From contig JALWTA010000030.1 in assembly GCA_027082955.1 (NCBI GenBank), positions 62,001 through 126,000 on the forward strand: a DNA stretch of 64,000 nt, in the 5' to 3' direction. Positions 34,016 through 40,013 of the stretch are shown piece after piece. This stretch comes from Sulfurovum sp. GTDB lineage: Bacteria > Campylobacterota > Campylobacteria > Campylobacterales > Sulfurovaceae. Numbering within the stretch: the stretch's first letter is position 1; each line of letters begins with the position of its first letter. Made by a program: the position numbers and the translations under genes. The notes below the pieces were generated by a model, which ran no database searches, was not told the DNA's origin, and saw only the letters and a list, made by a program, of their open reading frames with translations.

Positions 34016-34369
<354 letters not shown>

Positions 34370-34377
34370 TTATTGGG

Positions 34378-35550
34378 TTAAATGCTGCGTTTAAATTCGG
34401 GATAGGCTTCGATACCGCACTCGATGGCATCGATCCCCTCCAGTTGTTCTTCATCACCGGCACGCAGTGTAAAGATCTTGTTGATACTGTAAATTATAAC
34501 AAAAGAGAGCGGAAAAACAATAGCAGCAACTACAGCCACCCCTTTAAGCTGTGTCAGGAAGCTTACATCTGTGAAGATGCCGACAGCCAGTGTACCCCAG
34601 ATACCGTTGACCAAGTGAACGGAGAGTGCTCCGACGGGATCATCCATCTTCAGTTTGTCAAAGAATGGAACAAAGAGAACAACCAGAGCACCACCAATGG
34701 CACCGACAAGAATAGGCGTATAGATATCATACAAGTCAGGACCTGCTGTGATCGCAACCAAGCCGCCCAGTGCACCGTTTAGGATCATCGTAACGTCAAA
34801 CTTTTTGTAGCGTACATAGGTCATGAGCCATCCTACAATTGCTCCTGCAAGTCCTGCAGTATTGGTGTTCATAATAGTCAATGAAACGGCATCGGCATTC
34901 TCTTTGGTAGAGATGGCACCGACAGATCCGCCATTGAAACCAAACCAGCCGATCCAGAGTAAAAAGGCACCCAGTACAACCAGAGGAATATTAGAAGCGG
35001 GGATAACTTGCACTGTACCGTTCTCTTTATATCGTCCTCGTCGTGCTCCCATGATCAAAATGGCAGCAAGCAGCGCCCAGCCGCCTGTAGAGTGTATGAC
35101 AGTCGATCCTGCAAGGTCATGCATACCGGAGATGTCAAACATGGTTCCAGAGAGGAAGTTGGCTCCCCATGTAATGTTGACGATGGTCGGATAGAGAAAG
35201 GCTCCGACAATAATGGTGAAAAGGACAAGTGGAATGATACGTGAGCGTTCACTGACACCACCACTCATAATGTTGACCACTTTCCCCACAAATGCCATTT
35301 GGAAGAGGAAGAAGGCATATTTGTTGATGCTGTCCTGATGATCCCAGCTTCCAAATGCATAGGTGTAGCCTACAAGCAGAAAAGCCAATGATGCTACTGC
35401 ATAGATCATTACGTTGACCGTGAGTACTGATGTAACGTTTTTGGTACGTACAAGACCGGCTTCAAGCATGGCAAAGCCGGGTACCATCAAAATGATCAGT
35501 GTCATGGCAAATAGAGAAAAGAATGTGTCAATGACATAGTGCATTTCCAT
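34378..35550 (-). CDS. amtB: Ammonium transporter AmtB copy 1
   Basis: A 390-residue channel with eleven hydrophobic helices and AMT signatures: GFAMLEAGLVRTKNV, DLAGSTVIHSTGGWALL (the pore His), and a second pore-His region VGALSVHLVNGIWGTLAVG. There is no cleaved signal peptide, unlike copy 2. The C-terminal tail that binds GlnK ends GIEAYPEFKRSI. It lies downstream of a 258-bp intergenic region with a 17-bp palindrome (35675-35691). Confidence 0.95.
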   Translation of the reverse strand: MEMHYVIDTFFSLFAMTLIILMVPGFAMLEAGLVRTKNVTSVLTVNVMIYAVASLAFLLVGYTYAFGSWDHQDSINKYAFFLFQMAFVGKVVNIMSGGVSERSRIIPLVLFTIIVGAFLYPTIVNITWGANFLSGTMFDISGMHDLAGSTVIHSTGGWALLAAILIMGARRGRYKENGTVQVIPASNIPLVVLGAFLLWIGWFGFNGGSVGAISTKENADAVSLTIMNTNTAGLAGAIVGWLMTYVRYKKFDVTMILNGALGGLVAITAGPDLYDIYTPILVGAIGGALVVLFVPFFDKLKMDDPVGALSVHLVNGIWGTLAVGIFTDVSFLTQLKGVAVVAAIVFPLSFVIIYSINKIFTLRAGDEEQLEGIDAIECGIEAYPEFKRSI

Positions 35551-35808
35551 AGAGACTCCTTTGAGAATAAAATGAATGGTATAAGTGTATCAGATTTGAA
35601 TGTTAGTAGTTTCTCTATGAATGATGATAAAATAGGCAGAAATATGATGAAAAAAAATTTAGCACAGTTTTTTTTGATTAAAATTTAATCATTTTGCAAG
35701 TAGAATACAGAAGAGATTTGCAGCAATATACCCTATACAGGGCTTTGCTGGGAGTATGTTTTGCATGCAGCAGGCATACTTTTTTCAAAGCATGCTTGCA
35801 ACAATAGA
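35551..35808. other. amtB copy 1 upstream region with palindrome and hairpins
   Basis: This gene-free stretch holds the TGATTAA-N3-TTAATCA palindrome, a hairpin at 35721-35750 (CAGCAA, CCCT-ATAC-AGGG, TTGCTG) and a second imperfect hairpin around 35753-35800 with AGTATG/CATACT and TGCATGC/GCATGC-type arms. The hairpins lie just downstream of glnK copy 2 on the transcribed strand and may separate the two amtB-glnK units. Confidence 0.5.
35675..35691. promoter_or_regulatory. 17-bp palindromic operator candidate upstream of amtB copy 1
   Basis: TGATTAA-AAT-TTAATCA, a perfect 7-bp dyad 125 bp upstream of the amtB ATG. The same dyad with another 3-bp centre precedes amtB copy 2, and a degenerate version lies in the leader of the NtrC-like gene. 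A candidate -10 (CATATT on the minus strand, 35641-35646) would put the dyad near -49. Confidence 0.6.
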
Positions 35809-36171
<363 letters not shown>

Positions 36172-36193: not shown

Positions 36194-37501
36194 TTACAGG
36201 TTCATCCCTTTTTCACCGTGAACTGCTTCATCAAGACCGATCTCTTCTGTTTCGGCATCAACTCTCGCACCGCCTGTAAGGGCACTTGCAATGAAGTAGA
36301 CAATAACAGTACCAATGAGTGTCCAGAGACCGACAACGACAACAGATTCAACCTGTACCATGAACTGTCCCATTCTGTCTCCACTGGCTTTCAGCGGTCC
36401 GTCCCAAAGAAGGTCTTTGTCGTTCAGTGCAAGCAGACCAGTCATCAGTGCTCCCCAAAGACCTGCAAGGAAGTGAACACCGAATGCATCGAGGGAGTCG
36501 TCATAACCAAATATCTTTTTGAGCTTGACAACACCGAAGAATCCGATCAGTGCACCACCGATGCCTACGATGAATGCACCGCCTACAGAGACAAATCCTG
36601 CTGCCGGTGTAATAGCAACCAGACCTGCAACGATACCAGAAGCGATACCGAGCAGTGTCGGTTTTTTATAGACAACCCACTCTACAATCAGCCATGTAAG
36701 ACCTGCAGCAGCAGTTGCAACAGTCGTAGTCAGCAGTGCTACACCGGCAATGGCATTGGCACCGAATGCGGAACCGGCGTTAAATCCGTACCACCCAAAC
36801 CACAGTAGTGCCGCACCCGCAGCGGTAAATATGATGCTGAAAGGTTTCATAGGCAGTTTTGGATAACCGGCTCTTTTACCTACCAGAATAGCCAGAACCA
36901 GACCTGCAAGACCACCGTTCATGTGGACAACAGTACCACCGGCAAAGTCAAGCGCACCGGCATCAAAGAGCAGTGCACCGTCTCCACCCCATACCATGTG
37001 TGTAATAGGTGCGTAAACAATCAGTCCCCAGAGAGCCACAATGACCATCCATGTAGAGAACTTCATACGACCGATAACAGAACCTGAAGCGATCGCTACA
37101 GTAATAGCAGCAAAAGTTCCTTGGAATGCGATAAATACGAAAGTTGGGTAAGTTCCGCTAAGGTCTGTCCACTTGATACCGCTTAAGAATACGTTACCAA
37201 GACCACCGACAAATTTCTGGATACCTGCAGATTCAGCTGTACCGAATGCCAGTGAGTAACCTGCAATGACCCATACGACGAATGCCAGTACGAATGCACC
37301 CATTACCATTGCGTAGGTGTTGAGCGCATTTTTTGTTCTTGACATACCTGCGTAAAAGAGTGCGAGACCCGCAGGTGTCATCAGTAGTACGAGTGCGGTG
37401 GAGATCATCATCCACGCTGTATCACCCGAATCGAGTTTGTCTTCTGCCATAGCGGCAATAGGCATCAGCGATGCCAGTAGAGCGAAAAGTTTTAACTTCA
37501 T
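36194..37501 (-). CDS. amtB: Ammonium transporter AmtB copy 2 with signal peptide
   Basis: A 435-residue ammonium channel that begins with a cleavable signal peptide (MKLKLFALLASLMPIAAMAE), as in E. coli AmtB. It has LFYAGMSRTKNAL, DFAGGTVVHMNGGLAGL and the second histidine region DAFGVHFLAGLWGALMTG. It is clearly divergent from copy 1, so the two are not a simple recent tandem duplication. The palindrome at 37572-37588 lies 71-87 bp upstream; a TATGAT -10 (minus strand, 37535-37540) sits between. Confidence 0.95.
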   Translation of the reverse strand: MKLKLFALLASLMPIAAMAEDKLDSGDTAWMMISTALVLLMTPAGLALFYAGMSRTKNALNTYAMVMGAFVLAFVVWVIAGYSLAFGTAESAGIQKFVGGLGNVFLSGIKWTDLSGTYPTFVFIAFQGTFAAITVAIASGSVIGRMKFSTWMVIVALWGLIVYAPITHMVWGGDGALLFDAGALDFAGGTVVHMNGGLAGLVLAILVGKRAGYPKLPMKPFSIIFTAAGAALLWFGWYGFNAGSAFGANAIAGVALLTTTVATAAAGLTWLIVEWVVYKKPTLLGIASGIVAGLVAITPAAGFVSVGGAFIVGIGGALIGFFGVVKLKKIFGYDDSLDAFGVHFLAGLWGALMTGLLALNDKDLLWDGPLKASGDRMGQFMVQVESVVVVGLWTLIGTVIVYFIASALTGGARVDAETEEIGLDEAVHGEKGMNL

Positions 37502-37571
37502 GCTGTTTCCTTTATATGTTTTGATTGCAGAGGTATCATAACATGGATAAAGAAAAAAATATAATGATTGT

Positions 37572-37588
37572 TGATTAATTTTTAATCA
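37572..37588. promoter_or_regulatory. 17-bp palindromic operator candidate upstream of amtB copy 2
   Basis: TGATTAA-TTT-TTAATCA, a perfect 7-bp dyad that ends one base before the stop codon of the PAS-protein gene. With the -10 at 37535-37540 the dyad lies near -45 to -60, a usual place for an activator. No -24/-12 sigma-54 promoter is seen. Confidence 0.62.
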
Positions 37589-38290
37589 TTACTGGATCAG
37601 AGGAATATCGAGTTTAATGCTGCGTTCACCAAGTGAGCAGTTGATATGGCAGTGTTCTGCAAGTGTACGTATCTCACCATCTGCATCGCTGTAGCGTCCA
37701 TTTGCTTCTATGGAGAGCTGGGCAATGGGTGTACGTTTCCCGTCAATGATGACATGTTCTCCAACAAGCAGTTTTAAAACGATGCGTATGGAGTCAGAAG
37801 CCCTATAGGCATCAAGCACTTTTCTCAGCAGCTTGGAAAACCTGTTTTGGTCAATTTTCAGTGAGGGTAAATCGGGATCTGTCAGAAGCTGAAGTGTGTT
37901 GCTGTTTTTTGTCTGAAAGAGTGCAATGTTGGCTTCAAGCAGCAGGTTGATGTCTGTGGTCGCGAACTTCTCTCTCTCGATAGGAGTGGCATTTTTAATG
38001 CGTGGCGCATGATAGAAACGTATGGAGAGCTGCTCTTCATTCTCATAGCCTACAGTAATGGCATAGAAGTTGAATGTATCATAGGTTAGAGTGACCGTTG
38101 TCGTTTTGTAGCCGAAGTTTTGCGGGGCGTAGGTCAGTGCAAGGTCGTAGAGCTCTTTTTTGGAAACATACCCGAAAAGAATCTCTGCACTGTTGTTTAG
38201 ATAGAGAATCTTCCCTGTCGGATCAAAAAGGATGAAGGGACTGTTATCCCAGTCTACAAAGGGCTGAAAGTCAATCGATGTCGTGTTCAT
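37589..38290 (-). CDS. Degenerate NtrB-like PAS protein
   Basis: The 233-residue protein has an N-terminal PAS domain (residues about 10-95, FILFDPTGKILYLNNSAEILFGY) and a C-terminal part that follows the layout of a histidine-kinase ATPase domain (LKIDQNRFSKLLRKVLDAYRAS ahead of RIVLKL) but has no recognisable phospho-accepting His box, no N-box Asn and no glycine-rich G boxes. It is best read as a pseudokinase or ligand sensor related to NtrB. It overlaps the NtrC-like gene by 20 bp and lies upstream of amtB copy 2, so it probably reports nitrogen status to that regulator. Confidence 0.65.
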   Translation of the reverse strand: MNTTSIDFQPFVDWDNSPFILFDPTGKILYLNNSAEILFGYVSKKELYDLALTYAPQNFGYKTTTVTLTYDTFNFYAITVGYENEEQLSIRFYHAPRIKNATPIEREKFATTDINLLLEANIALFQTKNSNTLQLLTDPDLPSLKIDQNRFSKLLRKVLDAYRASDSIRIVLKLLVGEHVIIDGKRTPIAQLSIEANGRYSDADGEIRTLAEHCHINCSLGERSIKLDIPLIQ

Positions 38291-39002
38291 GGATCTTCTT
38301 CCTTAGTGTATTGCGGTTGATACCGAGTACCTGCGAGAGCTGAAGCTGGGATTTGAATTTTGCAAGTCCCGCTTTGATCAGCGGTACCTCATAGAGATTG
38401 AGATGTTCTTTGTAGCCGTTATTACCGCCAAGGTTTTCCATAAGATAATGGTAGACAGCCTGTTGTATTGTCTCTTTTCCCATATATCGGGTAGTAAGGT
38501 ACTGATAGACAGAGCGTTTCAGTGTTCTACTGTTGTGAGATAGATTGACGGGGATTTCATCGATATCTATCTCCTCATCGATCATGAGATCATCGCAGGC
38601 ACGCTTCAGGAACTTCTGTTTTAAAAATTGTGTATCTTCCGGACGTTCTTTGAGAGAGGGGAGATGGTAGATAAAGGCAAAAAGAGAGTCTATCGTATGC
38701 TGGTTGCCGATGTAGTTCGCGGTTGCGATGATACGTTTGTTGTCAAAATCGAGTCTTTCCATATTTTTCAGTTTTTCAAAATCGGTAATGATAAGCTCGT
38801 CACTCTCTTCCATCAGTGTCTCGACAGCATCCTGATCCTCACCTGAAACAGAGGGAGCATCCGGGAAGAGGTAGGAGGCCAATGTTTTTTTCCCGGTATT
38901 GGGCTCACCGATGATGATGGAGGAGACCAAAAGGGTCTTGGTAAGATTGAGCCCTTTGATGATATGGCGTACTTGTTCAGAATCTGTATAAAATAGTTCC
39001 AT
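38271..39002 (-). CDS. Reduced NtrC-like AAA+/Fis regulator lacking receiver and GAFTGA
   Basis: The 243-residue protein resembles the middle and end of an NtrC-type activator: Walker A GEPNTGKKT at about 34-42, Walker B LIITDFEKL, sensor I RIIATANY, YHLPSLKERPEDTQFLKQKFL, and a C-terminal Fis helix-turn-helix (LAKFKSQLQLSQVLGINRNTLRKKI seen as LQLSQVLGINRNTLRKKI). There is no receiver domain and the stretch between Walker A and B is too short to hold the sigma-54-contacting GAFTGA loop. It may therefore act as a plain DNA-binding switch at sigma-70 promoters. The ATG at 39002 is chosen because a TATAAT lies where the upstream ATG (39062) would be. Confidence 0.72.
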   Translation of the reverse strand: MELFYTDSEQVRHIIKGLNLTKTLLVSSIIIGEPNTGKKTLASYLFPDAPSVSGEDQDAVETLMEESDELIITDFEKLKNMERLDFDNKRIIATANYIGNQHTIDSLFAFIYHLPSLKERPEDTQFLKQKFLKRACDDLMIDEEIDIDEIPVNLSHNSRTLKRSVYQYLTTRYMGKETIQQAVYHYLMENLGGNNGYKEHLNLYEVPLIKAGLAKFKSQLQLSQVLGINRNTLRKKIHEHDID

Positions 39003-39028: not shown

Positions 39029-39045
39029 TGATTAAAAAATAACCA
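39029..39045. promoter_or_regulatory. Degenerate copy of the amtB palindrome in the regulator's leader
   Basis: TGATTAA-AAA-ATAACCA: left half identical to the amtB dyads, right half with two mismatches. It lies between the predicted -10 of the NtrC-like gene (minus strand TATAAT, 39061-39066) and its ATG, a position suited to autorepression. Confidence 0.45.
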
Positions 39046-39060: not shown

Positions 39061-39066
39061 ATTATA
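39061..39066 (-). promoter_or_regulatory. Predicted -10 box of the NtrC-like gene
   Basis: TATAAT on the minus strand, 59 bp upstream of the ATG at 39002. It overlaps the alternative upstream ATG, which argues against that start. Confidence 0.5.
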
Positions 39067-39113: not shown

Positions 39114-40013
39114 ATCATCAAAGAGGCATTCAGAGATTTTTGTCGTGCATACCCCTATTTGTCGTTTGAAAGTGCTATTGAGTACTTTTCCATACTGGGT
39201 GGAAGTCGGCAAAGCGCAGAACTTGACTACTTTGAAAGTCTGGATGCCATGGTTACATCCAACTTTGTGTACCACTTTTCAACCTTTCAGCAGATGGTCT
39301 CCCCTTCCTATCTGTTAGAGAACCCCTATCGTGACGTACTTGTTGCTGTGGCACGAGGTGACGGTAAATACTATACGGTACTGCGTAAAGCGAAACTGAG
39401 TGAGCAGACGGGTGAACGCATTGTAACTGAGCTTGTAGAGATGGGGGTGCTCTATATTGAAGCAAGCCGTGAACAGCCGCTTAAAACACACCCCAAACAT
39501 AAACTGAAAAAAGCGCTTCGAAGTTACCGTATTCAGGATAAACTCCGTTTTCATGCACCGTTTATGCGTTTTTGGTTTGGATTTGTCGCTCCATATGCTC
39601 ATGCACTCTCTTTAGGACAGGGAGAGCGGTTTATGGAAAATTTCAGAAACCACTATGAACGTCTTCGTACATTGGTCTTTGAACAGCTCTGCGATGCTTT
39701 TCTGACAGACTACTTTGCCAGAAAAGATACACCGTTGCTAAGCCACGGAAGCTACTGGAACCGCCACAGCGAATTTGACATTCTTGCTGTTACAGCAGAT
39801 AAAAAAGTGGTACTGGGGGAGTGCAAGTACAAAGACCGGAAAGTGTGCAAAAATGAGTTGAACAAGCTCAAAGCCAAAGCAGAGCAGTCGGGTATCAGAG
39901 CAGACATTTTTGCACTCTTTTCCAAAGACGGGTTTTCCAATGAATTGCTTGGGATGCAGAGTGAACAGTTGCTGTTGTTTGATTTGGGGGATTTGCAGCG
40001 GTTGTGTGAATAG
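39114..40013 (+). CDS. DUF234-type PD-(D/E)XK nuclease-like protein, unusual start
   Basis: The protein matches the C-terminal DUF234 region of archaeal-type AAA proteins but has no ATPase domain. Near the C-terminus EFDILAV followed by VVLGECKYKD gives the D and E-x-K of a PD-(D/E)XK nuclease core. The first ATG/GTG/TTG in frame is the TTG at 39159, yet the frame upstream (IIKEAFRDFCRAYPYLSFE) reads as real protein and a strong GAGGAAAGG lies at 39104-39112, just before ATC ATC (39114-39119). I therefore start it at 39114; a non-standard or mutated start is inferred. It converges on thiI. Confidence 0.7.
   Translation: MIKEAFRDFCRAYPYLSFESAIEYFSILGGSRQSAELDYFESLDAMVTSNFVYHFSTFQQMVSPSYLLENPYRDVLVAVARGDGKYYTVLRKAKLSEQTGERIVTELVEMGVLYIEASREQPLKTHPKHKLKKALRSYRIQDKLRFHAPFMRFWFGFVAPYAHALSLGQGERFMENFRNHYERLRTLVFEQLCDAFLTDYFARKDTPLLSHGSYWNRHSEFDILAVTADKKVVLGECKYKDRKVCKNELNKLKAKAEQSGIRADIFALFSKDGFSNELLGMQSEQLLLFDLGDLQRLCE

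Follow-up and report, generated by a model that had tools for sequence, protein, structure and literature searches.

A receiver-less NtrC-type regulator and a PAS pseudo-kinase as a probable nitrogen control system of Campylobacterota

How could a regulator of the NtrC kind control nitrogen genes after losing the parts for phosphotransfer and for sigma-54 coupling? This question is raised by a 64,000-nucleotide stretch of a Sulfurovum sp. genome (the window; assembly GCA_027082955.1, contig JALWTA010000030.1), which encodes a receiver-less, GAFTGA-less NtrC-type regulator of 243 aa (REG; 38271..39002, minus strand) and a PAS pseudo-kinase partner of 233 aa (PAS; 37589..38290, minus strand). 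The original prediction, made from the letters alone, placed two overlapping open reading frames ahead of two amtB-glnK pairs, and this layout was borne out: the minus-strand order is REG, PAS, amtB1, glnK1, amtB2, glnK2, with REG and PAS overlapping by 20 bp. We conclude that REG and PAS are very probably an undescribed nitrogen control system of many sulfur-oxidising and related Campylobacterota, and that REG very probably regulates nitrogen genes with sigma-70, likely as their activator and as a repressor of its own gene. As the best explanation of the whole we favour, with reasonable though not high confidence, a phosphate-free general nitrogen control at sigma-70 promoters in which PAS is the gate and P-II the input, and in which REG descends from an NtrC-type protein that shed phosphotransfer and sigma-54 coupling.

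Anatomy of REG and PAS

REG consists of a degenerate AAA+ domain (about residues 1-140), a lid and a Fis-type helix-turn-helix (HTH; 195-243) with the recognition helix NRNTLRKK. The HTH was the sole Pfam match of the window's protein, and the NCBIfam ntrC model TIGR01818 matched its lid and HTH (4.6e-9, far below the full-length cut-off). Among the 76 family members, PF02954 (HTH_8) was found in 71, and PF00158 was weakly matched by 43 (best 4.5e-8). The AlphaFold model of REG (pLDDT 92.8) has PspF, NtrC1, NtrX and FleQ as its nearest folds. When the REG profile was aligned with a profile of twelve true sigma-54 activators from the same class (E 4e-19), both the L1/GAFTGA stretch ESELFGHEKGAFT (ESELFG-EKGAFT) and the arginine-finger stretch YYRLN fell into gaps in REG, and no member offered N-terminal room for, or a match to, a receiver with its phospho-Asp. 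The predicted lack of receiver and GAFTGA loop was thus upheld. The predicted motifs fared less evenly: the Fis HTH and Walker A are kept (G37 in 76/76 members, K38 in 74/76), and Walker B is only half right, with Asp at its position in just 25/76; the 76 members show no conservation of the sensor II Arg/Lys. From these residues, the AAA+ domain likely binds ATP and is unlikely to hydrolyse it.

The partner was modelled (AlphaFold, pLDDT 90) as a PAS fold (1-95), a short linker and an NtrB-like catalytic (GHKL) fold (110-230), and the DHp helices are missing from this model. Its top structural matches include the NtrB catalytic domain 1r62 (E 2.9e-6, TM (target) 0.63), and full-length kinases align to the model only across a large gap, with about 350 alignment columns against 233 residues. 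In the 59 PAS members, HisKA and HATPase profiles matched none, a conserved His is lacking, D/E mostly takes the place of the N-box Asn, and the G1 motif and G boxes are absent. The original prediction of a sensor without phospho-accepting His or N and G boxes agrees with these results, and a GAFTGA loop or kinase core that it might have missed was sought with family profiles, in the profile alignment and in the structures, and none turned up. PAS would thus derive from an NtrB-type kinase fold without its phosphotransfer parts, and it is from the missing parts that we read independence of phosphorylation. Its origin in a histidine kinase fold could also suggest that PAS has kept a role in a phosphorelay, or that REG depends on phosphorylation by another kinase; however, with DHp helices, conserved His and N and G boxes lacking in PAS and a receiver lacking from REG in every genome, we regard this as highly improbable.

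Distribution, linkage and sigma-54 background

The distribution of the pair was surveyed in 298 Campylobacterota genomes of the class, after removal of three weak hits to other proteins. REG and PAS co-occur in exactly the same 101 genomes, all of which encode P-II; 36 further genomes encode P-II but not the pair, and the pair is in none of the 161 P-II-negative genomes. A REG profile search of the phylum gave hits confined to the class. The loss of catalytic motifs from both proteins could be taken as the mark of a decaying, non-functional NtrBC remnant, but both genes are open and conserved in 101 genomes with invariant residues, strict co-occurrence and conserved operators, and on the strength of the conservation and co-occurrence we reject this reading.

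The succession REG-PAS-amtB/glnK is kept in nearly all of 48 related loci where the contig reaches, and linkage varies beyond them. REG and PAS adjoin amtB-glnK in several families, so the case that would have undone the prediction, homologues never linked to nitrogen genes, is not what was found; in family f6, REG lies beside glnD and amtB-glnK. In other families, REG is located between a slyD-like gene and fabD, and PAS directly after rpoD. Since the two proteins co-occur strictly despite such separate loci, they appear to work together.

Two of these arrangements deserve mention in their own right. The slyD-like-REG-fabD neighbourhood is conserved at L088-L110, without nitrogen genes, and PAS directly follows rpoD in 35 of the 38 loci where it is not beside amtB (L148-L185, e.g. 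L148:5184-7770). The latter adjacency hints at a tie of PAS to sigma-70 itself.

RpoN (PF04552) is present in 250/298 genomes of the class and absent from the window's 2.1-Mb Sulfurovum-type genome, from all 6 sampled congeners and from most of its family. Since RpoN is missing there and present so widely elsewhere, the REG/PAS pair is not tied to sigma-54. A true sigma-54 activator was likewise not found in the window's genome, where the best PF00158 score is 34 bits, compared with 207-265 bits for true activators of relatives. Sigma-54 control of amtB was also considered and is ruled out for this genome, as it has no RpoN.

Operators and promoters at nitrogen genes

A palindrome with the consensus TGATTAA-N3-TTAATCA, the predicted operator, lies between PAS and amtB in nearly all Sulfurovum loci and was found with at most 2 mismatches in 36/41 of them. 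In the window, the ammonium transporter gene amtB1 (36194..37501, minus strand), a predicted target together with the P-II gene glnK1 (35809..36150, minus strand), is preceded by TGATTAAAAATTAATCA (37572..37588, minus strand), an exact 7-3-7 palindrome. The second ammonium transporter gene, amtB2 (34378..35550, minus strand), also a predicted target, has the exact copy TGATTAAATTTTAATCA (35675..35691, minus strand) and is followed by the P-II gene glnK2 (34016..34357, minus strand). An operator-like site with 2 mismatches, TGGTTATTTTTTAATCA (39029..39045, minus strand), stands upstream of REG. The operator perfectly matches the 15-bp Fis consensus GNTYAAWWWTTRANC. This string occurs also in PMC2816674.

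The copies are few and specific. The whole 2.1-Mb genome holds three exact operators and one single-mismatch copy, all at nitrogen genes: one each at amtB1 and amtB2, and two in the interval that separates a NarK-type transporter gene from a ferredoxin-nitrite-reductase-like gene. The exact operator was found in 56/101 genomes with REG, spanning at least 8 families, versus 2/197 without it (Fisher p 6e-30, relatedness ignored), and a control with the sequence read backward gave one genome with REG and three without. In relatives, operators mostly precede amtB, glnK, glnA, nirA/narK, the gene of a urea-type ABC binding protein, REG and porin genes, besides a few other genes, and this includes genomes in which REG and PAS lie apart from amtB. 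At amtB, family f6 and part of f8 have TGTATAW-N3-WTATACA in place of this operator, and their recognition helix differs at one residue. REG-bearing f6 genomes mostly keep this variant at amtB (0-2 mismatches), whereas the genomes without REG in one f6 genus have amtB-glnK and lack the variant there (3-5 mismatches, chance level). In most families the half-site type shifts along with the recognition helix, and this covariation is suggestive. A strict one-residue code linking N231 to the half-site was also tried; it fits most families and is broken by family f4, which has V and a different helix, TLTKK, together with the TGATTAA half-site.

We infer from these patterns that REG binds the operator directly. 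Because the tie between the two consists of co-distribution and motif type, another DNA-binding protein, such as an ordinary Fis or a nitrogen regulator that escaped recognition, could own the operator while REG and PAS do something else. This we consider improbable, since the operator follows REG across families and within one family, stands in front of REG itself, equals a Fis consensus as fits the Fis HTH of REG, and, in most families, changes half-site type when the recognition helix changes.

The promoter layout bears on the sign of regulation. The extended -10 of the amtB1 promoter, TGTTATGAT (37535..37540, minus strand), lies 31 bp after the operator, and the 35 Sulfurovum amtB promoters all have an extended -10 (TGnTANNNT) that starts 30-32 bp past the operator; the spacing is 31-32 bp in 34 of them, versus 6% in shuffles. 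This spacing puts the operator centre near -52 and outside the core promoter, a layout consistent with activation by way of sigma-70. At amtB2, a clear fixed spacing between operator and -10 was not found. Many narK, nirA and glnA genes have the operator about 76-78 bp ahead of their start codon. In many loci an operator-like site also stands upstream of REG, about 15 bp past the extended -10, and in the window this -10 (39061-39066) is just upstream of the TGGTTATTTTTTAATCA site; such a position fits self-repression. The same position, and the ability of Fis proteins to act with both signs, could instead mean that REG is a repressor of nitrogen genes, or a dual regulator, that is released under nitrogen shortage. 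We hold this to be rather unlikely, given the activator-like amtB operators near -52, with fixed spacing to the extended -10 and no overlap with it, and the repeated distance at narK, nirA and glnA.

Several observations weigh against the REG/PAS pair as a general nitrogen control. The exact operator is missing from 45/101 genomes with REG, some of which carry variants, and one of them (G096) shows neither operator type. Family f4 is an exception to the half-site/helix covariation. Several families have REG in the slyD-fabD neighbourhood and PAS beside rpoD, with no nitrogen genes. The activator sign is read from operator position.

Two side observations concern REG and its operator. The recognition helices of REG in two genomes (NRM and NRI; L123 in G254 and L143 in G096) are unlike those of their relatives, which suggests horizontal replacement. 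Exact operators also lie 36-77 bp upstream of porin-like gene starts (L283, L286, L295-L297, L303), and these porins are candidates for nitrogen-regulated outer-membrane channels.

Proposed mechanism and related systems

With the alternatives weighed, the reading that we prefer, a phosphate-free REG/PAS switch, can be set out as a mechanism. From NtrC/NtrB-type ancestors, phosphotransfer and sigma-54 coupling would have been lost. REG would be a Fis-type dimer whose AAA+ domain binds nucleotide, probably without hydrolysis, and it would bind TGATTAA-N3-TTAATCA, or TGTATAA-N3-TTATACA in other families, near -52 of extended -10 sigma-70 promoters. When nitrogen is short, REG would activate amtB-glnK, nirA, narK, glnA and others, and by binding just past its own start site it would repress itself. 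PAS would gate REG by direct contact in the manner of NifL and NifA, which we propose because its phosphotransfer chemistry is missing and the NifL-NifA precedent exists. Its former kinase domain would report the state of P-II (GlnK), and the PAS fold would add a second signal. P-II, for which glnK1 is the likely source in the window, is the most likely input to PAS: it co-occurs with the pair, shares the operon and is known to bind the catalytic domains of NtrB and NifL. GlnD is encoded in the window's own genome. The predicted phosphorylation-independent nitrogen switch at sigma-70 promoters gains support from the absence of RpoN and of a true sigma-54 activator from this genome, the 101/101 co-occurrence with P-II, the operator spacing and the tracking of REG by the operator. 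A wider proposal is tentative and less likely than not: class-wide, general nitrogen regulation might proceed with neither phosphotransfer nor sigma-54, through a P-II-driven pseudo-kinase that gates an NtrC relative with bound but unhydrolysed nucleotide at sigma-70 promoters and possibly touches sigma-70 itself, the latter because the PAS gene directly follows rpoD in many families.

Parts of this design have precedents, of which GAFTGA-less NtrC and NifL-NifA come nearest. NtrC of Rhodobacter capsulatus and Caulobacter lacks GAFTGA and serves nitrogen genes at sigma-70 promoters (PMC10274813), so a GAFTGA-less NtrC at such promoters is already known and not new here; the predicted novelty does not extend to it. 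Like REG, those proteins are NtrC-derived with L1/GAFTGA deleted and act at sigma-70 nitrogen promoters; unlike REG, they retain a receiver that is phosphorylated on aspartate, with NtrB as a genuine kinase. Their site is not known to be the Fis-type palindrome found here. Regulators of the VpsR and TyrR types are AAA+/Fis proteins without GAFTGA that work with sigma-70, and they answer other signals, serve other targets and are not known to have a pseudo-kinase partner.

NifL is a kinase-like PAS protein without phosphotransfer that binds the AAA+ domain of NifA (PMC12998174). The present pair resembles NifL-NifA, here by sequence only, in joining a non-phosphotransfer kinase-like protein to an AAA+/Fis regulator; it differs in that NifA works with sigma-54 and has GAFTGA, a DHp-like region is retained in NifL, and the NifL-NifA targets are nif genes. 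NifL receives P-II input. With canonical NtrB/NtrC and P-II, the system shares the targets amtB-glnK, glnA, nirA and narK (compare PMC5343134) and the presence of P-II and GlnD. The proteins themselves share the PAS and NtrB-like catalytic folds and the NtrC-like AAA+ lid and Fis HTH. In contrast to the canonical system, REG and PAS have no phospho-His, receiver or GAFTGA, and the window's genome has no RpoN. REG resembles Fis in its HTH (NRxTLRKK) and 15-bp site, but Fis is a small nucleoid protein with no AAA+ domain and no nitrogen-specific sites.

In the literature on Sulfurovum, Sulfurimonas and epsilonproteobacteria, no description of the REG/PAS pair was found, and to this extent the design does seem undescribed as predicted. 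A survey of Proteobacteria regulons gave the absence of orthologues of its target regulators (a list that includes NtrC) as the reason for leaving out epsilonproteobacteria (PMC5343134). The pair, its operator and its target list would fill this gap in Campylobacterota nitrogen control with a testable model. If it is true, the chemistry that defines a two-component system and a sigma-54 activator can be lost from both without ending their role as master regulator, and REG/PAS would be a compact phosphate-free switch to study beside NifL-NifA.

Some neighbouring genes may also be mentioned. The nearest model of amtB2 is TIGR03644, the 'marine subtype' (below its cut-off), and the genome thus carries transporters of two types, with a separate glnK for each. 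A DUF234-family gene (39159-40013) lies divergently upstream of REG and is present in nearly all Sulfurovum loci. In f6, a membrane-like protein that has no annotation (about 286 aa) is encoded beside REG (L111:4181-5041, L112:5829-6686), and a similar one at L216:1248-2105 has an operator upstream; this protein is possibly a further part of the system.
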